Assembly: GCA_016186945.1 (NCBI GenBank)
Contig: JACPKR010000072.1
Span: forward strand, 1 to 64,000
Length of the DNA: 64,000 bases
Reading direction: 5' to 3'
Origin: Deltaproteobacteria bacterium
Lineage (GTDB): Bacteria > Bdellovibrionota_B > Oligoflexia > Oligoflexales > Bog-1112
Position 1 is the first letter of the stretch. Each line of letters opens with the position of its first letter. Below the pieces are notes generated by a model. The model had not been told where the DNA came from. It saw only the letters and a program-made list of their open reading frames with translations, and did no database searches. Made by a program: the position numbers and the translations under genes. This document shows positions 6,783 to 39,502 of this stretch, piece by piece.

Positions 6783-9437
6783 TTAAGGTTGAACAGGTTG
6801 GCCTGCACCGTGACATTTCTTGTATTTCCTCCCTGAACCACAGGGGCAGGGGTCATTTCTGCCTACTTTATCTCCCTCCCGTCGGATTGTTTGCATAACG
6901 GGGGCCGCCTGCCTATGGGGAGCCGTCTTAGTTCCGTGGTAAATCAGCTTGTCTTCCTCAGCAGAAGGTCTTGGAGGGGGGAGGGTGGGGCCTCTGGGTC
7001 CCGCACCGGGTGCCGGGTGGCTGAAGTCCAGTTCGTCGAATTCCTCTGCTTCTTGCTCCTGATATTGTCGGACGGCAGCTTGGATTTGTGCCGGGTCGGG
7101 GCTAGGCATTCTAAGTAGGGTGAGCGTTGTCTCTCCTTCAATACGGTCGACGAGCAGGGTGAAAAGGTTGAAAGCTTCTCTCTTGTATTCCTGCAGGGGG
7201 TCACGCTGTGCATACCCGCGCAGGCTTACGGAATCCTTAAGTGCGTCCATGGCCAAGAGATGCTCTTTCCATGCCTGGTCGATGATTTGGAGGTATACGA
7301 AGCTTTCTATTTTCTTCATATCATCGCCAATGATGTCTGTTTTCTGCTTATATGTTGCAAAAATTTGCTCAGATGTGCTTGCGAGAACAGAATCGAAGTT
7401 TGTTTCTGTGGGGTTGAGTCCGTCGAAGTTAACAGACTGTTTGAACTCCATTTGTAAATCTTTGGCGATTGCGGAAAGGTTCCAGCTATCGGTATTTAAA
7501 GTTTCCGGTGAATATTTGACGATGATATCGCCCATGATGGTTTCGGCACGTTCGTGCATGAAGTTCACGTCCCCGTTTCCCAGGAGAGCTTCTCGGCGTC
7601 GGGTGTAGATAACCTGACGTTGTTGGTTCATGACATCGTCGTACTCGATAAGATTCTTACGGCTGGAGAAGTTTTGTTCTTCGACCCGCTTTTGTGCCTT
7701 TTCGATGGCGCGTGAAACCATAGGAGAGACGATGGACTCGCCTTCTTTCATCCCGAGTCGTCCCATGATTGCCGAAAGCCGATCCGATGCGAAAATCCTC
7801 ATGAGATCATCTTCGAGGGACAGGAAGAACTTTGATTTTCCGAGATCGCCTTGTCGTCCGGATCGACCTCGTAGCTGATTGTCAATACGTCGGGACTCGT
7901 GTCGCTCGGTCCCGATCACGTAGAGACCGCCTTTGCCGGGAACTCCCTCTCCTAGCACGATGTCAGTCCCGCGACCTGCCATGTTCGTTGCGATTGTGAC
8001 GCATCCCTGTTTCCCTGCTTCTGCGATGATGGAGGCTTCCCGAGCGTGGTTCTTCGCGTTTAGAACTTCGTGAGCAATGTTTTTTCTCTGAAGAAGGGAT
8101 GAGAGAAGCTCACTTTTTTCTACGGAGACGGTTCCTACGAGGACAGGTTGCCCCCTGGTTTGTGCTTCTTCGATGTCGTCTGCTATAGCAGCGAATTTTT
8201 CTCGCGCTGTGCGGAATACCACATCTTCACAGTCTTCTCGCACGAGTATTTTATTCGTAGGGATAACGACTACGTCGAGTTTGTAAATCTTATTGAACTC
8301 CACCGCCTCTGTGTCGGCGGTACCTGTCATCCCGGAGAGAATATTGTACAGACGGAAGTAGTTTTGGAAGGTGATGGTTGCCAGTGTTTGAGTTTCTTGT
8401 TGGACTTGTACGTGTTCCTTGGCTTCCAGAGCACCGTGAAGGCCATCGCTGTAGCGTCTTCCTGGCATAAGACGACCTGTGAACTCGTCGACAATCACCA
8501 CTTGTCCATTGCGAACAACGTAGTCCACGTCTTTCTTGAATATGACATATGCTTTTAAAGCTTGTTGGATGTGATGGAGCCATTCTATATTTTTCGGATC
8601 GTAGATGTTATCCAGGTTGAGTCGTTTTTCCATTTTGCTTATGCCATCCTCGGTAAGGCTAACCGAGCGGCTTTTTTCATCTACGACATAGTCGCTATCT
8701 TTTTGAATCCCTGGTATGGCTGCATTGACTTTCTTATACAGGTCGGTGTTTGAGTCCGAGGGACCTGAAATAATAAGCGGGGTGCGTGCTTCATCTATCA
8801 GGATCGAATCGACTTCGTCAACTATGGCGAAGTTATGTCCTCTCTGCACAAGTCGTGCAGAATCGGTTTTCATGTTGTCGCGTAGATAGTCGAAACCAAA
8901 CTCGTTATTCGTTCCGTAGGTTATATCGGCGGAGTAAGCTTCTTTGCGTTCATGGTCGCTTAGACCGTGAAGGATGGAGCCAATGCTCGCTCCAAGAAAC
9001 TTGTAAATCGCTCCCATCCATTCCGAGTCACGACGGGCCAGGTAATCATTCACAGTAACTACGTGCGCCCCTTGTCCGGCTAGAGAGTGGAGGAAGATGG
9101 GGAGCGTTGCAGTCAGGGTTTTTCCTTCCCCTGTCTTCATTTCGGCGATTTTTCCTTGATGGAGAACTATACCGCCGAGAACTTGAACATCAAAATGCCT
9201 TTGGCCGAGGGTTCTTCGCGCAGCCTCGCGGCAGGTGGCGAAGGCTTCGGGGAGTAGACTGTCGAGGGTTTCACCATTGGCGACGCGTTGACGGTAGACC
9301 GAGGCCAGATTGCGCAGTTCGTCGTCACTCAACCTTTTTTGGGAATCTTCCAGGTCGTTAATTCGGGCGACAAGGGGGCGGAGTTGATTGAGGAGCTTAT
9401 CATTTCGCGTTCCAAAAATTTTGGTCAAAAAGTTCAT
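6783..9437 (-). CDS. secA: Preprotein translocase ATPase SecA
   Basis: Motor of the Sec pathway that drives unfolded proteins through SecYEG. 884 residues with DEAD-type Walker A (MKTGEGKTL), [19 protein letters not shown], the preprotein cross-linking region, the NMAGRGTDI and RGRSGRQGD helicase motifs, and a C-terminal SEC-C zinc motif ([19 protein letters not shown]) for SecB and lipid binding. The start at 9437 (MNFLTKIFG) matches the family; an ATG five codons upstream is possible. A family B fragment lies upstream between it and the M23 gene. YajC, another Sec factor, is elsewhere in the window (45938-46321). Confidence 0.97.
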
Positions 9438-28060: not shown

Positions 28061-29428
28061 ATGAGAACGGAACCACTTGAAATCTTGGATCCTTCACAGA
28101 TTCGATCGTATTTGGAAATGCGTGACTTTCGCAAGCTTCGCTTACTATTTAAAGAGCACGAGATCGCTGACGTCGCAGAGCTGTTTTCTCAGCTTGAGTT
28201 AACCGAGTCTATTGCTTTGTTTCGACTGGTCCCTAGGGACAAACGGGCGGGTCTGTTTTCGGAACTTGAGTTTGAGAGACAGAAGGAACTGATTCAGGAG
28301 TTACCTGACATTATTGTGACTTCTTTTCTGGACGAGATGGACCCGGATGACCGCACGAGATTATTTGAAGAGTTACCGGAGGAATTGCGGGATCTCATCC
28401 TGCAAAAACTTAGCCCTGAGGAAAGACGGGTTGCCAAGAAACTTCTCAGCTACCCTGAAGATTCCGTTGGGCGGCTGATGACACCAGACTTCCTGACTCT
28501 CAAGGAAACTATGACAGTTTCTCAGGCTATGCAGTTCATCCACTGGAGCACAGCATTACCTGAGGAATTTTTGAATTACCTCTTCGTTACTGGGGACGAT
28601 GGAACCCTGATCGGGGAAGTCAGTTTGGCATCTCTTGTCCTATGCGATCCACCTCGGATGCGCATTAATGAAATTATGAAAAAAAGCAGGATTTTCCTCA
28701 GTCCTTTCGATGAAGCTCAGCGAGCGGTTGACCTGTTCAGGAAATATGACAACCCCTATATTCCCGTAGTGGATACGAACAAAAAAATCATAGGTATCGT
28801 TACGGCAGACGATGTTTTCGACGTTGCTGAAGAAGAAGCGACGGAAGATATCCATCAGTTCGGTGGTCAGGGGGCTTTAGAGGATTCCTACTTTAATACT
28901 CCTTTTTTTACGATGTTTCGCAAACGTGCCGGCGCGCTTGCGATCTTGTTTGTCAGCGGTTTTCTGACGTCAGAAACTCTGCAGGTCTATCACGATACTT
29001 TGACGCATTGGGGCTTTCTCTCATTCTTTATCCCGCTGATCATTGCGTCGGGTGGTAATTCGGGAACTCAGGCTGCCTCCCTCATCATACGGGGTTTGGC
29101 AATCAGCGAATTTGAAGACAAGGACAGTTGGCGAATCTTGCGGAATGAAATTTTGATAGGTCTGACTCTTGGCATTTTTCTAGCCGTGCTTTGGTACTTG
29201 CGTGCCTATTTTACGGAACTGAGTGCCGAGGTAACTTTTGTAGTGGGAGTTTCCATTATTGGTGTTGTCTTGTTCGGAGTCATTTCAGGCGCGATGCTCC
29301 CCTTTCTTTTTCGTCTGATGAAACTTGACCCCGCTGTTGTTTCCTCACCTTTCATTTCTACTCTTGTGGATGTTATGGGCATCTTGATCTTCCTGAACAT
29401 TGCCATCTGGGTATTCAAGATTCCTTAG
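28061..29428 (+). CDS. mgtE: Magnesium transporter MgtE
   Basis: 455 residues in the MgtE order: an N-terminal helical superhelix domain (about 20-125, with repeated DxxDRTRLFEELP motifs), two CBS domains (about 130-255, including MTPDFLTLKETMTVSQAM and GIVTADDVFDVAEEEATEDIHQFGG), and a C-terminal pore domain of five transmembrane helices (PLIIASGGNSGTQAASLIIRGLA). It imports Mg2+, gated by cytoplasmic Mg2+ binding to the CBS part. It is probably co-transcribed with the lipoprotein gene four bases upstream. Confidence 0.95.
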   Translation: MRTEPLEILDPSQIRSYLEMRDFRKLRLLFKEHEIADVAELFSQLELTESIALFRLVPRDKRAGLFSELEFERQKELIQELPDIIVTSFLDEMDPDDRTRLFEELPEELRDLILQKLSPEERRVAKKLLSYPEDSVGRLMTPDFLTLKETMTVSQAMQFIHWSTALPEEFLNYLFVTGDDGTLIGEVSLASLVLCDPPRMRINEIMKKSRIFLSPFDEAQRAVDLFRKYDNPYIPVVDTNKKIIGIVTADDVFDVAEEEATEDIHQFGGQGALEDSYFNTPFFTMFRKRAGALAILFVSGFLTSETLQVYHDTLTHWGFLSFFIPLIIASGGNSGTQAASLIIRGLAISEFEDKDSWRILRNEILIGLTLGIFLAVLWYLRAYFTELSAEVTFVVGVSIIGVVLFGVISGAMLPFLFRLMKLDPAVVSSPFISTLVDVMGILIFLNIAIWVFKIP

Positions 29429-29458: not shown

Positions 29459-29500
29459 TTCAACTTCCCCTCCACACCTCCCCCAAAAAACTTTAGATTT
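29459..29500. repeat. Family A repeat fragment
   Basis: About 42 bp match the middle of family A (CTTCCCCTCCACACCTCC followed by CCCAAAAAACTTTAGAT) in the same orientation as the copy at 39395. Both outer ends are missing. The stop codon of the minus-strand ATPase gene (29493-29495) lies inside the fragment, so the last codons of that gene derive from the repeat. Confidence 0.75.
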
Positions 29501-30695
29501 TGCGTTCGACCAACAGCCCTTGCAAAAAACTTGCGGAATTTGAACTCCATCCGAGTGCTTCTTTTTCTCTTATCACTGGTCCCGAAGGGTAAAGTAAAAA
29601 AGCTGGAACCTTCAGTTTCTGTGCATAATATCTTAAGCCTACCGGCCAACTCTGCGGGCTTGACTTGCATTCGATGAGAGCCAGGGGCCGCAAATTTCGG
29701 GTGATAACGAAATCCACTTCGCGTCGGTCTTGATCTCTTAAAAAGCAAAGCTCGTAACGACCATACCCTTGTTCAGACCATGCTGAACAGGCGAGAGCCA
29801 GTTGGATTGCCATGTAATTTTCAAAACAAGCCCCTTTATCTTCGCAAAAACTCCATTGTTCAAAATACCACTTTGCTTCCTTCTTAACAGCTCGGTGTAT
29901 TTTCCGGTGGAAGGGATAAATACGCAAACCGAGAAACAATGTTTCGAAAAGCCGCAGCCACGTTCTGACGGCAACCGGACTGACTTCAATATCTTCGGAT
30001 AAAGCCTGAAGGGAGAGCGGTGATCCAACGCGTTCAGGAAGCAAACGTGCAAGCATCTCCATTTTGTCTAGGCGTTGGACCAAACTGAAATCCCGAACAT
30101 CTTCGCGTATCAAACGATCAAGATATTGATCTTGCCAGCGTCTGGCCTTTTGCTCACTAGCCCCTAAAAAAGGAATGGGGAAGCCACCAAGCTGAATGAG
30201 ATCTTCATCGGAGATTTTAGACGAACTATCCGGCTCCCAGTGTTGCCAATCACGAGGTGCAGCAAGAATGTTTGAACCTAAAGATGACGTTTCGTCAAAT
30301 GAAAACGGCCAGAGCTTAAAACTGTTGTAACGTCCTTGTAAACTGTCACCGCCTCTCTGGTACTGGTCAAAACGCCCCGAACCTGTGACTATGAAATTTT
30401 CCTGCCGAGTGGACGAGTCATAATAACCTTTCAGAATTTTTTTCCAATCCTTGCGCTTATGAATTTCATCAAAAACGACCATCTTGTGTTCACTACGAAA
30501 AAAATATGGTTCTTTTACGTAGGACTTTTTGACTTCTACGGTATCCCAGTTGAAATATGCCGCTCCTGTTAGTTGGGTCGTCAACCAGGTTTTGCCGACT
30601 TGACGCGCCCCTGTTAGGAAAACCATGGGACGAGGAACGAAAATTTTTTCTCTTAACTCTTGAAAGGCTAAATTCTCTAAGGCCCTTTTAACCAT
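29493..30695 (-). CDS. AAA_14/DUF4143 ATPase (first copy)
   Basis: 400 residues. N-terminal AAA domain with Walker A GARQVGKTWL, Walker B MVVFDEIHKRKDW and sensor VTGSGRFD; C-terminal DUF4143 region with a winged-helix part (LLPERVGSPLSLQALSEDIEVSPVAVRTWLRLFE) and a nuclease-like end DRREVDFVITR...LALIECKSS (D-x(n)-ExK pattern). The family is widespread and mobile and its function is unknown. The start ATG 30695 has GAGG in front; an ATG at 30725 lies in the centre of a palindrome. Its 3' end is in a family A fragment. Only distantly similar to the copy at 36933-38072. Confidence 0.88.
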   Translation of the reverse strand: MVKRALENLAFQELREKIFVPRPMVFLTGARQVGKTWLTTQLTGAAYFNWDTVEVKKSYVKEPYFFRSEHKMVVFDEIHKRKDWKKILKGYYDSSTRQENFIVTGSGRFDQYQRGGDSLQGRYNSFKLWPFSFDETSSLGSNILAAPRDWQHWEPDSSSKISDEDLIQLGGFPIPFLGASEQKARRWQDQYLDRLIREDVRDFSLVQRLDKMEMLARLLPERVGSPLSLQALSEDIEVSPVAVRTWLRLFETLFLGLRIYPFHRKIHRAVKKEAKWYFEQWSFCEDKGACFENYMAIQLALACSAWSEQGYGRYELCFLRDQDRREVDFVITRNLRPLALIECKSSPQSWPVGLRYYAQKLKVPAFLLYPSGPVIREKEALGWSSNSASFLQGLLVERKI

Positions 30696-30705
30696 GGATA
30701 ATCCT

Positions 30706-30739
30706 CGCGTAAAACAGATGTTCATATCTATTTTACGCG
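30706..30739. promoter_or_regulatory. 34-bp palindrome at the start of the first ATPase gene
   Basis: Two 14-nt arms, CGCGTAAAACAGAT (30706-30719) and ATCTATTTTACGCG (30726-30739), pair at 13 of 14 positions around a 6-nt centre. It lies 10 bp upstream of the proposed ATG. Such a site is expected to be bound by a dimer; autoregulation by the downstream protein, which has a winged-helix part, is one possibility. Confidence 0.65.
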
Positions 30740-30779
30740 CGTAGAACCAATATGTACATCGTTTTCACGACACATTGGT

Positions 30780-30921
30780 AATGCGTAAGCCACTTGGGGC
30801 AAGGAGGTGGTTTGGAGGAAACTGCGCAGCTGGTTCCTCCAAGAAATCCCTTGGTGGAGCGACGGTTCCCTCGCCCCCCCAAAACCCCCCCCCCCCATTT
30901 TCCCCAAGTGGCTTACGCATT
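30780..30921. repeat. Family B MITE-like repeat, copy 2, with 20-bp perfect terminal inverted repeats
   Basis: 142 bp. The ends AATGCGTAAGCCACTTGGGG (30780-30799) and its exact complement (30902-30921) are perfect. Inside are the GGAGGAA/TTCCTCC hairpin with the CTGCGCAG centre and a C-rich tract with twelve consecutive Cs. It is not in a gene: it lies between the palindrome of the first ATPase gene and the 3' end of the next minus-strand gene. No transposase is encoded; as a MITE it would need one elsewhere. Confidence 0.9.
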
Positions 30922-30953
30922 GAGAAGCAATCCCCCGAAGCTCGACCGGAATA

Positions 30954-31601
30954 TTAATATGCTAGGATTCCCATTCCTAACTGTAGGGCACCGAGTACGA
31001 GAGCGACCGAAGTCATCGCTAGTGCTTTTGCGTTGTATTTTTTAATGGCATCACCTGTATCAAGAATAACCCCTCTTAAGGAATAACCCATGGCCACACT
31101 ATTAGAAAGAGCTGCGACAATAGTCACGGGCAGTTTCGCCAAGAGTAGAGCCTCTCTTTCGGGGGGAGTTCTACACTCCGGGTTGGAAAAAGAAGAAAAA
31201 GGCCCAATGGATGGTAACACACTTAAGGTATTGAAAAGTAGATTAAAACCCAGGATAAAGGCCAGAGGAGCATTAGGGAAAACGATGGAATGCGTGGCAA
31301 AAGCAGCACTGACTGCCAACAATGTAGCTCCCACTGCACAACCATCGAAGACGCTTGAGATGATTTGAGGCGTCATCCAACACTCAGTAGGCCACTCAGA
31401 ATAAGCATCCAAGGGCGGACAAAAGTGTACGCCTGGATTTTGTTCTTTCAACTTCGTACCTGCACAAGTCGGACTATCCCCGCATTCTTGACACATCACG
31501 GTACAATTATAATTACCCGGTTGAGAAACTTGAGCACCGTCACTTGCAAAGGCAACGGCGCCAAACTGAAAAAATGCGCTTATGATAAGTGTTTTATGCA
31601 T
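30954..31601 (-). CDS. Exported four-helix membrane protein with Cys-rich N-terminus, unknown
   Basis: 215 residues. A signal peptide (MHKTLIISAFFQFGAVAFA) is followed by about 50 residues with seven cysteines (NCTVMCQECGDSPTC..FC..EC), then four hydrophobic helices at about 82-105, 110-135, 150-175 and 190-213. I do not recognise the family. The third ATG (31601) was chosen because GGAG lies nine bases upstream. It is divergent from the next gene, which also encodes a protein with signal peptide, cysteines and a late helix; the two could work together. Confidence 0.65.
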   Translation of the reverse strand: MHKTLIISAFFQFGAVAFASDGAQVSQPGNYNCTVMCQECGDSPTCAGTKLKEQNPGVHFCPPLDAYSEWPTECWMTPQIISSVFDGCAVGATLLAVSAAFATHSIVFPNAPLAFILGFNLLFNTLSVLPSIGPFSSFSNPECRTPPEREALLLAKLPVTIVAALSNSVAMGYSLRGVILDTGDAIKKYNAKALAMTSVALVLGALQLGMGILAY

Positions 31602-31765
31602 TGCCATTATCTCCATTTCTTAAATCAGTTCGGGTTGAATATAAGAAAATAAAAGTAATTTACAAGGAATTAGTGAAACTGTTGAGCGTTTGGTTTTGAG
31701 TTGACGTCCTTCTATCTCTGATCTAAAACGGGGAACACCACGGATGATTTTTCACGGTAGGGTTT

Positions 31766-32485
31766 ATGAAATTCTTAATTTTAAGCCTCTTCTTTATTGT
31801 GTTATTCTCTCTTACTTCTCTTGGACAATCAAAGGTGCCTGAAAGTTTTGACAGGTTTCACACCAATTTTTTCTTTTGTTTCGACGGATATTGCCCCATT
31901 CTCGGAGGGTTTGAAGCGCAGCCTGACGATGCGAATGCAGTGAGAAATTACTTGCGAGAGACTTTAGGGCCGGAATGTGATTTTGGCGTTGTCGTTGCAC
32001 CTGGAACATTGACCAATGGCTATCGTTTGAGTTGGAGTGAATTGGGGGTTGACGACAATACGCCAATCAAGGCATCCCCGCTCTGGAGGATCGACAGCGG
32101 AAAAGTCATTGTCAAATACGATGCGCACGGTATCGGTACGGTTCAGGAGAGGATGGAAGGAATACAGCAATGCTTGGCGAAACCCGAAAATGAAAAAAAG
32201 GTTAGCTTGTTTTTGAAGGATAGGGCAGCGGGAGCTTTATGGGGAAGAATGGCAGCGATTGGAGGACTTGTTGTCGCGTCTTTAGCTAGCTTTTATATCG
32301 TTTTTCAGATGTTTTGTGACCTTCAATTCAACCTCATTCGCCGCTGCGGAAGTTATTGCACTAATTGTTTAGGGCGCAGTTCTCGCCGAATTGACGTCGT
32401 TCCTCCGTCCGCTCCTCCGCCCTATCTAGCCCCCGCAGGCGTTGTGCCTGCGGCCTCGCTGGAGATGTTGGAAAAGATGCCGTAA
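31766..32485 (+). CDS. Exported protein with one late transmembrane helix and Pro-rich tail, unknown
   Basis: 239 residues. Signal peptide (MKFLILSLFFIVLFSLTSLG), an extracytoplasmic domain of about 150 residues with paired cysteines (FFFCFDGYCP; PECDFGV), a transmembrane helix at about 165-187, and a cytoplasmic tail with a Cys-containing basic stretch (RRCGSYCTNCLGRSSRR) and a Pro/Ala-rich end. No family recognised. The end of the reading frame includes the palindrome at 32433-32453. GGTAGGG precedes the start at 31766. Confidence 0.6.
   Translation: MKFLILSLFFIVLFSLTSLGQSKVPESFDRFHTNFFFCFDGYCPILGGFEAQPDDANAVRNYLRETLGPECDFGVVVAPGTLTNGYRLSWSELGVDDNTPIKASPLWRIDSGKVIVKYDAHGIGTVQERMEGIQQCLAKPENEKKVSLFLKDRAAGALWGRMAAIGGLVVASLASFYIVFQMFCDLQFNLIRRCGSYCTNCLGRSSRRIDVVPPSAPPPYLAPAGVVPAASLEMLEKMP
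32433..32453. repeat. Perfect 8-bp palindrome with 5-nt loop inside the coding end
   Basis: Arms CCGCAGGC and GCCTGCGG enclose GTTGT. It lies in the last 18 codons of the upstream gene and encodes part of APAGVVPAAS. It is much more GC-rich than its surroundings and may be a small REP-type element inserted in frame, or act as the stem of a transcript end. Confidence 0.5.
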
Positions 32486-32532
32486 TTATAAGCGAATCTT
32501 TGTCACCGAAAGATATTTGATCGGTGATCGGC

Positions 32533-32561
32533 TTGATTTTTCAGAGACGACTAGATATAAT
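32533..32561 (+). promoter_or_regulatory. Sigma-70-like promoter for the 539-residue exported protein
   Basis: TTGATT (32533-32538) and a perfect TATAAT (32556-32561) with a 17-bp spacer. The gene start at 32606 lies 44 bp downstream with AAGGAAAATGAA before its ATG. This is one of the three best sigma-70-type matches in the window and shows that the gene is transcribed on its own. Confidence 0.7.
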
Positions 32562-32605
32562 TTTACCTACATCATACATAAGGACATAATAAAAAGGAAA
32601 ATGAA

Positions 32606-34225
32606 ATGCACAAAAAATATGCATTGATTTTAGCCATGATTGTATCACAGTTTCCAATTGGATTATATGGTACAGCTACCATAAAATGGTGTAATACAAT
32701 ACAGGGTGAAATAAGAGAAGGAGGTGCCTTTGGAGACGCAACTGGACTTCTGGTGTTGACTTCCGGTAATTTAAAGGGTTTAGCATGTTGGCTAGAGCGC
32801 TTCCCAGATGGAGCAACAATCGGTACAGATATTTTCCTACGTGATAGTGCCGGTGTAAAATATGAACTTTCTGGCCACGGTAGCGATATAGCGACCGGAT
32901 GGTACCTTAAGAGTCTTGTAGAGCTGCCCGGTCTGGCAGGGAGACAGGTAAACTTCTGCACAGAAAACACGGCGCCTGAAAAACGCTATCTTATTACTAG
33001 GTTGTTTATCGGAGGAAAAACGGTTGCACACGTAAAACCGGGTGCAATTGTCATTAATTATGAATACCCTCAGGGTAAGAAGCATAAGTTTAATTTCTCC
33101 GTTCAAGATGGCGAAAATATTCTCATCACGCCAACAAATTTATCCGGAGGTATTGCTGTTTATTTAACAAAAACATCTCTCAAAAAGGCTTCGTGTTTTG
33201 ATAAGGATCTTTTAAAGGACGCAAAAATTCGTTTTGTGAATTATATCACGGTAAAGAACCAGACACATCAGAACTTGACTATTAAATTCGCTCCTAGTGG
33301 CGTTACAAAGGAGCTAAAAATTGATCCTGCACCTCATGATGGACTTACAACGAATAAAGAAATCGAGCTATCTAAACCGCCGACATCAATCAGTTGGGCA
33401 TCTGATGATGAAAAAATTCAAGGCACCAGTTCAATTGATGATCGCTTCTATGAAAAATCCAAAGGCATTGTCACCATTGCGGGTAAAGGAATGACGATTG
33501 GCGAAGAACCATCAAAAACAGAATTGGTCACCATCTCAAATGCAACATTTGAACCGCTTAATATAGTTCTTACAACGGATTCAATTATTCGTCCATTTCA
33601 ACTCAAACCACTAGATACAACAACGGTTAAGTATATTGGTGTACCGCAACTCATAGCTTGGGCAACACCATCAGGTAAAACCAAGGGTGAGAGACAATGG
33701 GAACACGAGGAAGATGTCACAATAGGTTTTGGAAATCTCATTACATATGATAAACCACTTAAGTTAACGTCACAACTAATATTCAACAGTAACAACCAAG
33801 GGATTGTAGTCACCTTAAAAACTCAACTGGGACAAGAGTATGAATCCGCTATTCCGGCTCAAAAAACAATCATGATAAAAGCGTCTACCACCGATCAAAT
33901 CACAAGTTTTGAGTGGCGCGCTGATGACAATAGCTTCACGGGAAAGCTCAATGAAGAACAACTTCAAAAACCAAAAATCGATATCCGGGATTCAACAGTC
34001 ACCACACCATTAATTACTCAACTTACAGCAGATGAAATTATGGCGCTGGCCCCTGCTGGACGATCCTGTTCAGCAAGACTAAGCGGAACATTACTTTGGG
34101 GGTACTGCGATAAAAGGATGCCAGATAATATATTTTATAGCCTTTATACATCAATTGATATAGCTCAATGCCCGGAGCCAGCTGCAATTGAAAATAGGAA
34201 CGGAACCTTAACGTGTCTTAAATAA
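32606..34225 (+). CDS. Exported protein with three diverged beta repeats, unknown
   Basis: 539 residues with signal peptide (cleavage near residue 22). An N-terminal part (23-130, IKWCNTIQGEI...) has cysteines; residues about 210-460 contain three diverged units of about 85-105 residues. Each has a core 'N.T...L.I.....', a proline near the middle, then 'I.W....G' (TSISWASDDEKIQG, QLIAWATPSGKTKG, TSFEWRADDNSFTG) and a final 'V/I-T/D-I-x' strand. This suggests tandem beta-sandwich domains. A short C-terminal domain has three cysteines. Not recognised. The gene is clearly AT-richer than the conserved genes in the window, consistent with acquisition. Confidence 0.7.
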   Translation: MHKKYALILAMIVSQFPIGLYGTATIKWCNTIQGEIREGGAFGDATGLLVLTSGNLKGLACWLERFPDGATIGTDIFLRDSAGVKYELSGHGSDIATGWYLKSLVELPGLAGRQVNFCTENTAPEKRYLITRLFIGGKTVAHVKPGAIVINYEYPQGKKHKFNFSVQDGENILITPTNLSGGIAVYLTKTSLKKASCFDKDLLKDAKIRFVNYITVKNQTHQNLTIKFAPSGVTKELKIDPAPHDGLTTNKEIELSKPPTSISWASDDEKIQGTSSIDDRFYEKSKGIVTIAGKGMTIGEEPSKTELVTISNATFEPLNIVLTTDSIIRPFQLKPLDTTTVKYIGVPQLIAWATPSGKTKGERQWEHEEDVTIGFGNLITYDKPLKLTSQLIFNSNNQGIVVTLKTQLGQEYESAIPAQKTIMIKASTTDQITSFEWRADDNSFTGKLNEEQLQKPKIDIRDSTVTTPLITQLTADEIMALAPAGRSCSARLSGTLLWGYCDKRMPDNIFYSLYTSIDIAQCPEPAAIENRNGTLTCLK

Positions 34226-34266
34226 ACTAACCCATAAAACAAAAACATCCAATTGTTTGAATTGAA

Positions 34267-34296
34267 ACAGGTCATGAATCAACATTTGTGACCTGT
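34267..34296. terminator. Candidate bidirectional terminator between convergent genes
   Basis: Arms ACAGGTCA (34267-34274) and TGACCTGT (34289-34296) form a perfect 8-bp stem with a 14-nt loop, followed by CTTGTTT on the plus strand and preceded by T-rich sequence on the minus strand (GTTTCAATTC). It lies between the ends of the 539-residue protein gene and the Ig-repeat lipoprotein gene. The T-tract is short. Confidence 0.45.
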
Positions 34297-34308
34297 CTTG
34301 TTTGATCC

Positions 34309-36660
34309 CTACTTAGTCTTGAACATGGAAGTGAAGGAAGAAGTCATCGGGTTGCTCGCAAGATCCTTGACCCCTTGTGTCACGGTAACTGTATAGGTGC
34401 TATTCCTTTTTAATGCAGAAAGTGGGGTGAACGTTGCTACTTTGTTAGTATAGCCTACTGTTCCAGAAATAGAAGTGTTTGCAAGTTTAAGCTGGATCGT
34501 CCCGGTATTGATCGTGTTTGGATTCATGTCTTCAGAAAATGCAATGAGAATTTTAGTTGAAGTCGCAACAGACACAGTATTGTCAGCTGGGGAGATAGAT
34601 TGTACAAAAGGAGGCGTCGTATCAGCCTCTACCCCTGTTGTGAACGTCCAACTATAGTCGTTGAGCATTGAGTTCCCTGATAAATCACGAACCGTATTGC
34701 GAATACTTGCGGTATAGGTTACTGAAAAATTTAGATTCGCCGAAGGGGTAAATATAGCAGTTCGACTTGAGTAGCTAACTATGCCACTGATGGCATTTGA
34801 ATTCAGATCTTTCAGGGTAAAGCTTAAAGTATTTACAGTCGACGGCGCCATATCTTCGGAAAACACTGCTAATATTTTTGTATTCACATCGACATTGCTT
34901 TGATTTCCAAGGGGAACTGTCGATACGAGTTCGGGACGGGTGGTGTCCGGAGCTGCCCCTGTGGTAAAACTCCAAACAAAGTCGTTGGCTAAGGCATTCC
35001 CGGAAAGATCTAAAATTCCCTCCTTTAAAGTGCACTCATAAGTTGTTGAGTAGGAAAGTGCTTCGGAGGGCGTGAAAATTGCACTTCGGCCGAAAGCTGA
35101 GACGACGCCATTAACCGTTTTCTGATTAGATTTTTCTTTCAAATAGAACGTAATGGGAGTCACGGAAGTTGGTGTAATATTTTCGCTAAACGTGGCAGTT
35201 ACCTTCGTAATGGTGGAAACTTGCAAGGCGTCAGGTTCAGGAGCCGTTAGACTCACTTCTGGTGGAGTACTGTCAACCGTCGATGCCGTTGTAAATGACC
35301 AACTATAGTCCGACTCTAGTTCATTGCCGTTTAAATCTTTAACGCTTCTTAGAATGGTTACCTTGTATTTTGTTTCCGGATCCAAGTTGAAAAGAGGTGA
35401 AAACACCGAAGTCCGTCCTGTATTTGTAATTGTTCCTATAACGAGAACGCCGTTGGCTTTTTCAACTAGAAAGCTTGCCGATGTTAAAGACGACGCCAAC
35501 ATAGGTTCTGTAAACGTGACGGAAAATTTGCTGCTGATAGAAACATCTGTCGCTGAGATACCTGGTGCATGATTAGATACTTGAGGAGCGGTCAAATCTT
35601 GTTGAGCACTCGTCGTAAATTCCCAAATGTAGTCAGACTCGAGAGTATTCCCCGCAAGATCACTGACCGAACTTAGGATATGGGCAGTTATACGGCTATC
35701 TTCAGGAAGTAAGTCCAACGGTGTAAACGTAGCGACTCTTCCTAAAACACTGACGTTACCCACAAGTCGACGTGATGAGGAATCTGTTAGAAAAAACTCG
35801 TAGGTCGTCAGAGTTCTTATATCGACGACTTCGGAAAATGTCACGGAGACCTTTCCATTGATCGGAACATCTTTACTTTGCGGAAGCGGGGTCACGGAAC
35901 TAACAACGGGGCGCGTGGTATCAGACTCACTTTGGGTTGTAAAACTCCACTGATAAGAACCGACCATAGCGTTTCCCCGCAAGTCTTTAACTCGAGAAAT
36001 GCTTGCAGTATATGTAACACCAATTTGTAAGACTGAAGTTGGTGTAAAAATAACCGTTCTTCCCAGTTGTTCTGTTTGACCACTGATCAAACTACCGTCG
36101 GCGGATACCAGGTTTACAACACCAGAACTAATTGAAAATGGGTCAATCGACTCTGTAAATACGACAGAGATCTTTGTGTTAGTAGCAACGTTTTTGGCTT
36201 GATTGATTGGTGTTACGGAGCTGACCTTAGGGGGTGTAGTGTCACTCTGTTCTCCCGTTGTAAATTTCCAAGTATAGTCCTTAACCAAAGTCTTGCCGGA
36301 AAGGTTCCTTACTGACTTTTTGACTAGGGCATGAAATTCTCGTGAAGGAGTGAGTCCAAAAGAAGGAGAAAAGAGTGCAGTATTTCCACTGGAACTCACT
36401 TGACCAGCAATTTGTAGCTGAGTCTTGGTATCAAATAAGGTAAACGAGGTACTTGAAATCGTAGTCGAGACGATCCTTGTCGAGAACACAATCGACAGCT
36501 TAGTATTGGTGGCAATATTCGTTGAATTATTTCCTGGGCTGGTTGAAGACACATAAAGTGTACGTAAGTCCTCTATAGCGCCATCCCCGTCTTTTGCCCC
36601 ACAGGCACTGAGGGCTAATAGCCCTAGTGTGAAGCCTGCCCAACTTAGCTTGATCGTCAA
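34309..36660 (-). CDS. Lipoprotein with seven tandem Ig-like (Big_5/SbsA-type) domains
   Basis: 783 residues. Lipobox LLALSAC gives lipidation at about residue 20. Seven units of about 105 residues follow, each beginning with D-T/S-T-x-P-x-V-x-x-x-x-P (the first is degenerate), with N-x-x-V..T.I.V.FSE in the first third, G.V...G..A.F.P in the middle and L..NSTYT...V.DL.GN....Y.W.FTT at the end. This is the bacterial Ig-like domain 5 pattern found in surface and extracellular matrix proteins. It probably acts as a cell-surface stalk or adhesin; no catalytic or binding end domain is seen. Confidence 0.88.
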   Translation of the reverse strand: MTIKLSWAGFTLGLLALSACGAKDGDGAIEDLRTLYVSSTSPGNNSTNIATNTKLSIVFSTRIVSTTISSTSFTLFDTKTQLQIAGQVSSSGNTALFSPSFGLTPSREFHALVKKSVRNLSGKTLVKDYTWKFTTGEQSDTTPPKVSSVTPINQAKNVATNTKISVVFTESIDPFSISSGVVNLVSADGSLISGQTEQLGRTVIFTPTSVLQIGVTYTASISRVKDLRGNAMVGSYQWSFTTQSESDTTRPVVSSVTPLPQSKDVPINGKVSVTFSEVVDIRTLTTYEFFLTDSSSRRLVGNVSVLGRVATFTPLDLLPEDSRITAHILSSVSDLAGNTLESDYIWEFTTSAQQDLTAPQVSNHAPGISATDVSISSKFSVTFTEPMLASSLTSASFLVEKANGVLVIGTITNTGRTSVFSPLFNLDPETKYKVTILRSVKDLNGNELESDYSWSFTTASTVDSTPPEVSLTAPEPDALQVSTITKVTATFSENITPTSVTPITFYLKEKSNQKTVNGVVSAFGRSAIFTPSEALSYSTTYECTLKEGILDLSGNALANDFVWSFTTGAAPDTTRPELVSTVPLGNQSNVDVNTKILAVFSEDMAPSTVNTLSFTLKDLNSNAISGIVSYSSRTAIFTPSANLNFSVTYTASIRNTVRDLSGNSMLNDYSWTFTTGVEADTTPPFVQSISPADNTVSVATSTKILIAFSEDMNPNTINTGTIQLKLANTSISGTVGYTNKVATFTPLSALKRNSTYTVTVTQGVKDLASNPMTSSFTSMFKTK

Positions 36661-36911
36661 AGTCCGATGATCCTCCGCGATTCCATCTTTCGGATCGGAG
36701 GAACGAACCTAAAACTTAAAGGACATGGGCGTTGTTGCATAATCAAGGCATAGAGCAATAAGCGCTCCAGGTCGTCGGGCTGTCGTAGAGAGATACCGCT
36801 GATACAGCTCACCTCTATTTGTGGGTCGATTTCAGTACAAAAGTAATTTAGTTTGGCAAGGTTAGAAAAGACGGCGGCCCTGATGGTCGTGGCGTGGGAT
36901 TTTATAAACAC
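36657..36911 (-). CDS. Doubtful small ORF upstream of the Ig-repeat lipoprotein
   Basis: 84 residues (MFIKSHATTIRAAVFSNL...RKMESRRIIGL), not resembling a family I know, with no signal peptide or clear ribosome site. Its stop overlaps the ATG of the lipoprotein gene (ATGA-type), which would suit translational coupling and is the only reason to keep it. It may equally be untranslated leader of the lipoprotein mRNA; no better feature was found in this 270-bp gap. Confidence 0.25.
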   Translation of the reverse strand: MFIKSHATTIRAAVFSNLAKLNYFCTEIDPQIEVSCISGISLRQPDDLERLLLYALIMQQRPCPLSFRFVPPIRKMESRRIIGL

Positions 36912-36932
36912 AGCGACAATTCACATAAGAAC

Positions 36933-38072
36933 TTACAAAAATAATCCTGACAAAAATCTTGTTACGTCTAATATTTTTATTCCATTTTTTTCGTGTTCAT
37001 GTCGCACCAATTTGACCAATTGAATTGCCGGATATTGATATTTTTCATGAAAATGAATGAGTGCTCGGCTGGGTGTACTGTCAGACAATTTTACTTCTAT
37101 GATACTCTCGATTTTTTCTTGGCGAGTTAACGCAAAATCCACTTCCATCCCGTCCTTTGTGCGCAAGTAGTGTAAGGCAGTTTCTTCAGCCTGATAATCG
37201 GTTAGGGCGTACGAGTGTTTGAGCAAGCTTACCGCAACGAGGTTTTCAAGCTTTGCCCCATCATCCCCTTGCACAAGTCCGGTGTCAAAAAAATATAACT
37301 TTGGCTCTTTTAATAAGCTGCGTGCAATATTTTTTGAGTAAGGGGTCACCCTAAAAATAACGAATAGGGCTTCTAAAACTTGAATATATTTTTTTATTGT
37401 TGTTGGCGATACAATAACATCCTCAGCCAGGGATTGGTAAGAAACTGGTGTGCCGACCCGACTTCTCAATAAATTGAAAACGAGTTGCATTGCTTTAAAA
37501 TTGTAGATTTTGTCCATCTCAAAAACATCGGTGCTTAAAATACTATTGATGTATTGCAATCGCCACCTATTGGCTTCCACTTCATTTTCTGCCAAATAAG
37601 GTTCAGGAAAGCCGCTACGTGAAATCAATCGGTCAAGAGCAAGAACCTCTGGTATCTGTGTAAGCTCTGCCAAAGAAAGGGGCAGCAATCGGTGACGAAA
37701 ATATCGTCCCGCCAGAGAATCCCCTAGTTGATCGTAGATATCCAATCGTGCACTTCCGGTCACCAAGATGCGCATGGATTGGGACTTTGTGTCATAAACC
37801 CCTTTAAGATAATTTTTCCAATTTTCCATCTTATGGAGTTCATCAAGGATCAAGAGATCCGTTGTCGGAAGCCAGGATTGTGCATTAATAATTTCGCGAT
37901 CTAGAATTTGGTCATAATTAAGGTAAACGCTATTTTTGAACGCCAATGCAAGATCCTTAGCTAGCCAAGTTTTTCCTGCTTGGCGTGGCCCCACGAGAAG
38001 CACAATTTTCTTTTCCAAATCCTTAAGGATGGCCTGTTTTTGAATTCTCTTCATTAGACTAAAATACATCAT
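36933..38072 (-). CDS. AAA_14/DUF4143 ATPase (second copy)
   Basis: 379 residues. Walker A GPRQAGKTWLAKDL, Walker B LLILDELHKMENW, sensor VTGSARLD, an SLAGRYFRHRLLPLSLAEL segment typical of the family, a winged-helix part (LRSRVGTPVSYQSLAEDVIVSPTTIKKYIQVLE) and the nuclease-like C-terminal pattern DGMEVDFALTR...SIIEVKLSD. Function in the family is unknown. An ATG at 38072 abuts a 30-bp palindrome; ATG 38054 is the alternative start closest to the usual family N-terminus (MKRIQKQAIL). It shares layout but low identity with the copy at 29493-30695, so it is not a recent duplication. Confidence 0.88.
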   Translation of the reverse strand: MMYFSLMKRIQKQAILKDLEKKIVLLVGPRQAGKTWLAKDLALAFKNSVYLNYDQILDREIINAQSWLPTTDLLILDELHKMENWKNYLKGVYDTKSQSMRILVTGSARLDIYDQLGDSLAGRYFRHRLLPLSLAELTQIPEVLALDRLISRSGFPEPYLAENEVEANRWRLQYINSILSTDVFEMDKIYNFKAMQLVFNLLRSRVGTPVSYQSLAEDVIVSPTTIKKYIQVLEALFVIFRVTPYSKNIARSLLKEPKLYFFDTGLVQGDDGAKLENLVAVSLLKHSYALTDYQAEETALHYLRTKDGMEVDFALTRQEKIESIIEVKLSDSTPSRALIHFHEKYQYPAIQLVKLVRHEHEKNGIKILDVTRFLSGLFL

Positions 38073-38102
38073 ATTGGAGTAAAGTCAAGACTTTTCTCCA
38101 AT
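38073..38102. promoter_or_regulatory. 30-bp palindrome abutting the second ATPase gene
   Basis: ATTGGAG-T-AAAGTC (38073-38086) and GACTTT-T-CTCCAAT (38089-38102) are inverted repeats with one mismatched pair and a 2-nt centre. The left end touches the ATG at 38072. Its position matches that of the palindrome at the first ATPase gene while its sequence differs, as would be expected for sites recognised by each gene's own product. Confidence 0.65.
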
Positions 38103-38208
38103 TACGTGACGTTTAGTCGTAAACTTAGAAGTGAAATGATATTCCCTTTGGGCTTGCTGATGATCACCTTCAATCAAAAATACAAAAATAATAGCGACTT
38201 AGCGTCTG

Positions 38209-38237
38209 TGAGCCGAATATCCACAGTATTCGGCTCA
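38209..38237. promoter_or_regulatory. Operator-like palindrome 1 upstream of fic
   Basis: Perfect 11-nt arms TGAGCCGAATA (38209-38219) and TATTCGGCTCA (38227-38237) with a 7-nt centre. The same half-site recurs at 38253, one site closer to the gene. Two aligned sites in front of a gene whose product ends in a winged helix suggest autorepression. Confidence 0.75.
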
Positions 38238-38252
38238 GAATATCTGTATTTT

Positions 38253-38280
38253 TGAGCCGAATAGGGTTACAATCGGCTCA
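38253..38280. promoter_or_regulatory. Operator-like palindrome 2 upstream of fic
   Basis: Left arm TGAGCCGAATA (38253-38263) is identical to that of site 1; the right arm CAATCGGCTCA (38270-38280) matches at 9 of 11 positions, with a 6-nt centre. The left arms of the two sites are 44 bp apart, close to four helical turns, so bound dimers would lie on the same face. The site ends 18 bp before the fic ATG and would cover the promoter or start region. Confidence 0.72.
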
Positions 38281-38298
38281 ACAAGAAAAAGGGCGGCA

Positions 38299-39399
38299 AT
38301 GACGTACATATGGGAGAGAGATGATTGGCCGGAATTCAGGTGGGACTCTACATTAGTAGAAAAGCAGGTTTATGCTTATGTGAAGGAAGCGAGTTCTTTA
38401 ATTGGTCAGGCTTCTCTTTTCACGAGTGAAAGAACAACAGAAGCGTTGGTCGATCTGATGGTCTCGGAGGCTGTTAAAACCTCTCAAATAGAAGGAGAGT
38501 TTTTCAGCAGGAAAGATGTACGGTCGTCCATACTCAATCAATTGGGAATTAGAAAGACGATTGAACGCGTGCGTGATCCTGGCGCAGAAGGAGTTGCATC
38601 TCTTATGATTGCTGTTCGAGATCAATTTCGGGAGCCTTTGACGGAACAACGATTATTCGAGTGGCATAGTTTGCTTATGTCAAGACCCATTGATAGAAAG
38701 CGCTTAGCTGTTGGGAAATGGAGGACATCAACGAAGTCCATGCGGATTATTTCGGGACCTATGGGTCGGAAAAAGGTCCACTATGAAGCACCGCCATCGC
38801 ATCGGGTGCCGCGGGAGATGGAAACATTCATAGGCTGGTTTAACGAAAGTAAGGACTTGAAAGGCCCTATACGAGCTGGAGTCGCCCACCTTTATTTTGA
38901 ATGCATCCATCCCTTCGATGATGGTAATGGACGCATTGGACGTGCCTTATCTGAGACGGCTTTGTCTCAAGATTTAGGTTCCCCCGTGCTCCTTAGTCTA
39001 TCCACAACGATCCAAGCACACCGGCGGAGTTATTATGATGAACTGTCTAAGGCAAGTCGAGGGGATCTCGATATTACCGAGTGGCTGGTCTGGTTTACCC
39101 AAGTGATCTTGGACTCACAGTTGCAGGCTAAGGGACAGATTGAATTTGTTCTCAAGAAGGCTCGTTTTTGGGATCATCATGCTGAGCATATCAATAAGAG
39201 ACAGGTCAAAGTGTTGCAAAGGATGTTCAAGGAGGGACCAAAGGGATTCTCTGGTGGCATCACCGCGCAAAAATATATGAAAATTGCCGCTTGCTCAAAA
39301 GCCACCGCTACGCGCGACTTAAGCGATTTGAATACAAAAGGCTGTTTGAAAAGACTTGCAAGCGGTGGTCGAAGTACGCATTATGAAATTAATCTATAG
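38299..39399 (+). CDS. Fic family AMP-transferase-type protein (DUF4172-Fic-winged helix)
   Basis: 366 residues. N-terminal DUF4172-type start (YIWERDDWPEFRWD), the inhibitory helix motif T61-SQI-E65-G66 of class II Fic proteins, the catalytic loop HPFDDGNGRIGR with H204, and a C-terminal winged helix (about 300-366). The loop is canonical, so nucleotide transfer (usually AMP from ATP to a hydroxyl side chain) is expected, held in check by E65. Two palindromes lie upstream. AAGGGCGG precedes the ATG. The stop TAG is in the TATAGT end of a family A repeat. Targets cannot be read from sequence. Confidence 0.92.
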   Translation: MTYIWERDDWPEFRWDSTLVEKQVYAYVKEASSLIGQASLFTSERTTEALVDLMVSEAVKTSQIEGEFFSRKDVRSSILNQLGIRKTIERVRDPGAEGVASLMIAVRDQFREPLTEQRLFEWHSLLMSRPIDRKRLAVGKWRTSTKSMRIISGPMGRKKVHYEAPPSHRVPREMETFIGWFNESKDLKGPIRAGVAHLYFECIHPFDDGNGRIGRALSETALSQDLGSPVLLSLSTTIQAHRRSYYDELSKASRGDLDITEWLVWFTQVILDSQLQAKGQIEFVLKKARFWDHHAEHINKRQVKVLQRMFKEGPKGFSGGITAQKYMKIAACSKATATRDLSDLNTKGCLKRLASGGRSTHYEINL

Positions 39400-39502
39400 T
39401 ATTTGAGAAAAAGAATTCGTGGAGAGGACCTTTTTTGAAAAAAAGTTCCCCTCCACACCTCCCCCCAAAAAACTTTAGATATTGAAGTTTTTGAAAAGGG
39501 GC
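39395..39502. repeat. Family A repeat, short form, copy 4
   Basis: About 108 bp from TATAGTATTTG to GAAAAGGGG, exactly filling the gap between the stop codons of the convergent fic and lipoprotein genes. The fic stop TAG lies within its terminal TATAGT. The hairpins with T-runs on both strands would suit a bidirectional terminator. Confidence 0.88.

Follow-up and report, generated by a model that had tools for sequence, protein, structure and literature searches.

Genes and predicted proteins at the locus

Two genes of the AAA_14-DUF4143 type, here termed genes A and B, were identified in the window (the whole stretch of 64,000 nucleotides of genomic DNA that was analysed). Both were detected with Pfam over the curated cut-offs (gene A, AAA_14 3e-25 and DUF4143 8e-22; gene B, AAA_14 3e-26 and DUF4143 5e-29). 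Furthermore, their products match the profile HMM of PDC-S01, a single-gene phage-defence candidate of PADLOC (COG1373 / AAA_14-DUF4143), with most of the length covered (B 2e-58, A 1.3e-55). The start of gene A is the ATG at position 30695. Gene B possesses two in-frame ATGs, at 38072 (upstream) and 38054, of which alignment points to the latter as the probable start. The features of the locus are listed in Table 1.

Table 1. Positions of genes, proposed operators, predicted promoters and neighbouring features in the window
Feature	Position	Strand	Description	Basis
Gene A	29493..30695	minus	AAA_14-DUF4143, 400 aa, PDC-S01 type, AAA+ ATPase / winged helix / PD-(D/E)XK	Pfam, PADLOC, alignment
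Palindrome A	30706-30739		34 bp, 14-bp arms, 6-nt loop	
Operator A	30708..30769	minus	62 bp, gene strand CGTGAAAACGATGTACATATTGGTTCTACG-CG-CGTAAAATAGATATGAACATCTGTTTTACG; takes in nearly all of palindrome A	
Promoter of gene A (predicted)	30730..30758	minus	sigma-70-like, TGTACA-17-TAAAAT, inside operator A	Consensus match only
Stretch copied as solo A	30677..30778	minus	102 bp: operator A, Shine-Dalgarno, ATG and first ~6 codons	
MITE-like repeat	30780-30921		immediately upstream of operator A; terminal inverted repeat AATGCGTAAGCCACTTGGGG	
Big_5 protein gene	34309-36660		783 aa, seven Big_5 Ig-like domains; between genes A and B	
Gene B	36933..38054	minus	AAA_14-DUF4143, 373 aa, PDC-S01 type	Pfam, PADLOC, alignment, AF2
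Operator B	38057..38118	minus	62 bp, gene strand GACTAAACGTCACGTAATTGGAGAAAAGTC-TT-GACTTTACTCCAATATGATGTATTTTAGTC; takes in palindrome B	
Promoter of gene B (predicted)	38061..38088	minus	sigma-70-like, TTGACT-16-TATTTT, inside operator B	Consensus match only
Palindrome B	38075-38104		30 bp, ATTGGAGTAAAGTC-AA-GACTTTTCTCCAAT, 2-nt spacer	
Inverted motif	38209-38284		TGAGCCGAATA, repeated, before SoFic-type gene	
SoFic-type gene	38299-39399		divergent neighbour, Fic/DUF4172	PADLOC SoFic, 1.5e-47
Dispersed hairpin repeat	39419-39456 and ~29470		TGTGGAGAGGACC / GTGGAGGGGAAC; second copy at 3' end of gene A; many places in genome	

An AlphaFold2 model of protein B (pLDDT 92) was found to consist of an AAA+ core, a winged helix at approximately residues 186-238 (helices 186-198, 206-213 and 217-229, strand 233-238) and, at the C-terminus, a fold resembling a nuclease. 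Across 64 homologues no variation was seen in the Walker A residues, in R117 or in the nuclease residues E270, E304 and D306, and Walker B D71/E72 and nuclease E320/K322 are nearly invariant. A first-pass annotation of the window had likewise stated that both proteins have winged-helix and nuclease-like parts. Given this conservation, nuclease activity has probably been retained by the family, an inference made from sequence alone. A single-sequence search identified no solved structures for the window proteins, and a profile search returned only generic AAA+ and weak 2FNA/Card1 matches.

Architecture of the proposed operators

The first-pass annotation had described a palindrome around 10 bp before the ATG of the first ATPase gene and another touching the ATG of the second. 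Both were confirmed, each with 13/14 arm positions matched. Palindrome A ends 10 nt before the ATG of gene A, while palindrome B lies 2 nt from the upstream ATG of gene B rather than from the likelier start. The accompanying statement that the two sequences are unrelated holds for their letters; their architecture, which had not been recognised, is identical. Each palindrome is part of a 62-bp element, hereafter termed operator after its proposed function, composed of two 30-bp dyads with 2 bp between them, and so of four half-sites of ~13 bp. The 62-bp dyad as a whole is symmetric as well, even in the linkers between half-sites. A search of the window with Rfam gave no matches.

A scan of 255 combinations of dyad length and gap over 86 homologues, conducted without any sequence motif, ranked the 30-2 geometry first, and the six best combinations all had a 32-bp period. 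The geometry scores of operators A and B were 54 and 50, compared to a maximum of 39 among 430 shuffled regions, by which a chance origin of the 62-bp elements is excluded. When 474 kb of the genome was scanned for the geometry regardless of letters, four sites scored 46 or more, namely operators A and B and two solitary copies of operator A (described below). No site reached this score in shuffled sequence (about 0.46 Mb of genome).

The sole sigma-70-like promoter of each of the two window regions falls within its operator, with the second hexamer of the gene B promoter ending 7 nt before ATG 38054. These promoters are consensus matches and, taken alone, do not exceed chance. Among the subclade of B, the element mostly ends 2-4 nt ahead of the start codon. 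The position of the operators over the predicted promoters is nevertheless in keeping with promoter occlusion at the DNA level, and renders an RNA hairpin in the leader improbable.

That alternative, in which the palindrome would form a hairpin in the 5' leader for translational control or attenuation, draws on the location of the palindrome immediately upstream of the start codon and on some mismatches being G-U compatible. However, an element that ends so close to the ATG in the B subclade, and that in the case of B itself holds the predicted -35 and -10 hexamers, would be mostly untranscribed. Moreover, a tandem array of two dyads with a fixed 32-bp period suits the helical repeat of DNA better than it does one hairpin. 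This explanation is regarded as very unlikely.

Enrichment at gene starts across the family

The first-pass annotation had proposed that an absence of palindrome enrichment near the start codons of other family members would refute its reading. This comparison was made and enrichment was found. The sample comprised 197 distinct members from at least six phyla, including the phylum of the window, Babelota, Alphaproteobacteria, Chlamydiota, Fibrobacterota and Thermodesulfobacteriota, together with several plasmids. An inverted repeat with a score of 10 or more was present at 34.5% of the family starts, the controls reaching 4.4% (other gene starts), 2.6% (the members' own stop regions), 1% (gene bodies) and 0% (shuffles), with p=6.6e-22. 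When each gene was randomised separately, 48% of 205 members proved to possess a significant element (p<0.01), where 2% at most would be expected, with the proportion lying at 29-67% in every group sampled. The start-site element is thus common and not universal, about half of the members having no detectable element. For PF09820, a different multi-copy AAA family of the same phylum, none of 16 starts carried an element.

The genome of the window encodes ~25 family genes in 2.66 Mb, and the repeats near 24 of these greatly exceed in strength those at the starts of 252 other genes (p=8e-10). Most of the matches at control starts in this genome are copies of dispersed repeats. Shared dispersed repeats were also considered as a cause of the enrichment and rejected, as they explain most control matches and not the gene-specific sites.

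Start-codon palindromes with letters unlike those of the window were also identified for distant homologues on plasmids of Rhabdochlamydia (Chlamydiota), Granulicella (Acidobacteriota), Acidithiobacillus and Sphingobium. No fixed geometry could be established for other subfamilies, in which single dyads of about 19-51 bp occur.

Copy numbers of the family can be very high, with 45 matches in a 4.2-Mb relative and 15 in a 1.4-Mb Babelota genome. On a megaplasmid of Acidithiobacillus caldus (L118:1956-3600), a member overlaps its downstream gene by 11 nt, a possible operon; the product of this downstream gene resembles an Xre/MbcA/ParS toxin-binding antitoxin.

Specificity of the half-sites

Half-sites are more alike within a gene (identity 0.68-0.76) than between genes (0.41), and their arms covary, with all 26 of the 26 dyad pairs examined having changed on both sides. 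The operators for these counts were picked by symmetry, and the counts are inflated as a result. The symmetry covariation score was 0.485, compared to 0.175 for shuffled and 0.08-0.16 for slid sequence. A Mantel test likewise linked the similarity of half-sites to that of the proteins (r 0.64 overall and 0.57 at positions 1-4).

The B dyad, with one mismatch allowed, occurs in the 2.66-Mb genome only at its own operator (backwards control 0). Site A is not strictly private, having two additional solo copies without an ATPase ORF. Privacy was scanned genome-wide for A and B only. No match to operator B or to the family proteins was found in the viral contigs searched.

The earlier proposal that each ATPase recognises its own site, and the check suggested with it for covariation with winged-helix residues, fared differently. 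The first is supported by the gene-specific half-sites and by the privacy of B, with binding remaining an inference. For the second, mutual information and partial Mantel tests of half-site letters against protein columns identified no winged-helix window exceeding the permutation maximum. Coupling of half-sites to the winged helix was not significant once overall identity was corrected for, the recognition-helix residues T219 and K221 appearing merely among the top single columns. What can be stated is that half-site similarity follows overall protein identity.

A different reading is that another host factor or a partner regulator, and not the ATPase, binds these sites. Room for such a binder is left because binding by the own protein is undemonstrated and no significant signal places the covariation in the winged helix. 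Against this, the sites of paralogues within one genome differ, so that a single host factor could not read them all, and site and gene travel as a cassette that contains no further gene and closes with the stop codon (see below). This reading is held to be highly improbable.

An artefact of mutation, by which hairpin self-correction or dispersed repeats would maintain the palindromes, was also considered. It is favoured by the symmetry that extends into the half-site linkers and by a genome rich in MITE-like repeats beside family genes. However, the geometry is fixed across phyla and limited to the 5' ends of one gene family, half-site similarity tracks protein similarity, and the dispersed repeats can be recognised as such and explain most control matches. 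This explanation is all but excluded.

Probable inheritance of operator and ORF as a cassette

Close homologues of B (76-79% protein identity) were identified in Babelota and Alphaproteobacteria. In addition, four relocated pairs (L046/L228, L232/L244, L048/L061 and L076/L083) share 80-90% DNA identity with unmatched flanks. In all four, homology begins 50-79 nt before the ATG and ends no more than 7 nt from the stop codon. For L046/L228 its beginning coincides with the outer end of the 62-bp operator, and for L232/L244 it covers the palindrome together with a TTGACA-like hexamer immediately beyond it; in L076/L083 the operator was not recognised. These cassette boundaries show that operator and ORF behave as a transmitted unit of ~1.2 kb. 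An exception is the cross-phylum pair L004/L152 (76% DNA identity), which has the gene in common and not the upstream palindrome.

No terminal inverted repeats bracketing the gene were found, nor any counterpart of the palindrome at its 3' end (the stop regions reaching only the 2.6% given above), and inspection of the junctions of relocated pairs and solo copies revealed no target-site duplications. The criteria for a transposable element or MITE (terminal inverted repeats with target duplication) are not met. Neither is that for a homing endonuclease, a gene interrupting its own site, as an intact site lies 5' of the gene.

The two solo copies of operator A are located on contig C5 of the window genome at 29240-29341 and 33451-33548 (L264:3241-3342 and 7452-7549). 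They are 98-102 bp in length with 98% identity and shared ends, and one lies ~45 bp past the end of a further PDC-S01 gene (L010), counted from its stop codon. Neither is followed by remains of an ATPase gene, and a search for an empty site in seven relatives from the same taxonomic family gave no matching locus. They could conceivably represent a small regulon, traces of lost cassettes or products of a mobility process.

Other repeats also lie close to these genes. The MITE-like repeat upstream of operator A belongs to a family with copies upstream of many PDC-S01 genes in the window genome, and the stop codon of gene A is apparently situated within or beside one copy of the dispersed hairpin repeat.

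A mobility or end/target site is the main rival reading of the symmetric element. In this case the ATPase-nuclease would move its own gene in a homing-, transposon- or origin-like manner, with regulation being secondary. Evidence in its favour consists of the homology of the relocated pairs being bounded on the operator side and by the stop codon, the close B genes in distant groups, the shared ends of the solo copies and the conserved nuclease residues. However, there is no bracketing inverted repeat pair, second 3' site or visible target-site duplication, and the gene does not disrupt the site as in homing, the element instead overlapping the promoter and being always 5'. Mobility is thus unlikely, though not excluded.

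Autorepression as the proposed explanation

Of the two functions that the first-pass annotation had offered for the palindromes, autoregulation is favoured over mobility because the predicted promoters lie inside the operators. Mobility receives partial support, in that operator and ORF move as one cassette; nothing shows the ATPase moving it. Both window genes carry a symmetric site that covers their own predicted core promoter, the promoters being consensus matches only. We consider it likely that the palindromes are gene-private autorepressor operators over the core promoter, inherited with the ORF as a cassette, although no binding or expression data support this.

According to this proposal, each AAA+/winged-helix/PD-(D/E)XK protein would bind its own symmetric site through the winged helix, as an oligomer, covering the core promoter, repressing its own transcription and so keeping the level of nuclease low. 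In the subfamily of the window genes, the operator is a 30-2-30 array whose 32-bp period, about three helical turns, would place both dyads on the same face of the DNA. As half-site letters diverge along with the protein while the geometry stays fixed, cross-regulation between paralogues of one genome need not occur. Computation establishes the sites with their enrichment, architecture and symmetry covariation, as well as the boundaries of the cassettes and the private nature of site B. That each protein binds its own site, acts as a repressor, forms oligomers and serves in defence is only inferred.

A bolder reading would have the ATPase-nuclease parked inactive as an oligomer on the four half-sites of its operator, with loss of the complex, through phage takeover or competition by foreign DNA, derepressing the gene and freeing the nuclease. 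In a stronger form, the site would serve the protein for copying or moving its cassette, and the solo A copies would be footprints. The two forms, judged jointly, are unlikely.

If the autorepressor proposal is correct, a family-wide private site would allow a DNA ligand and a repressed ground state to be predicted for many copies, while the operator itself predicts an oligomer geometry of four winged helices at a 32-bp period. Such a site opens an orphan family to bench testing and helps in calling true starts and promoters. It also suggests operator plus ORF as the inherited unit of the PDC-S01 family, with copies that may switch themselves off and move between microbes with their own switch, binding and repression being inferred.

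Comparison with known systems

According to a 2026 survey (PMC12988326), PDC-S01 is fourth in abundance among prokaryotic defences, with ~39,500 copies; it is described there as an ATPase joined to PD-(D/E)XK, and most PDCs are said to await validation. In an Argonaute-positive strain, the RNA of a Thermus thermophilus member, TT_P0211, was up 6.6-fold with plasmid (PMC4406477). The literature searched describes neither a start-site operator nor autoregulation for the uncharacterised AAA_14-DUF4143/PDC-S01 family.

The best fold matches to the AlphaFold2 model of B were the archaeal AAA+ ATPase Sso1545 (2FNA, TM 0.49) and the Walker-type ATPase PABY2304 (2QEN, 0.46), followed by ORC/Cdc6, RuvB and Avs5/NB-ARC/Apaf-1 (STAND). 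TM is about 0.5 or lower throughout, with 10-19% identity. Unlike Sso1545, PABY2304, ORC and STAND proteins, the window proteins possess a C-terminal PD-(D/E)XK module, which is Card1/CARF-PDDEXK-like by profile.

The SoFic-type (Fic-wHTH) gene neighbouring gene B is likewise a single-gene defence candidate with inverted repeats before its start. It differs in belonging to an unrelated protein family and in having several shorter repeats, partly common to orthologues; a GAGTTATAA-type repeat is common to the upstream regions of three SoFic homologues in related genomes. Private operators might possibly be common among winged-helix single-gene defence candidates.

Autorepressing controllers of restriction-modification systems and type II antitoxins keep a potentially harmful nuclease under a private palindromic operator placed over the promoter. 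By analogy, PDC-S01 resembles these in its private palindromic operator overlapping a predicted promoter and in being a small horizontally transferred unit. Unlike them, it joins DNA binding, ATPase and nuclease in one polypeptide, without a separate controller gene.
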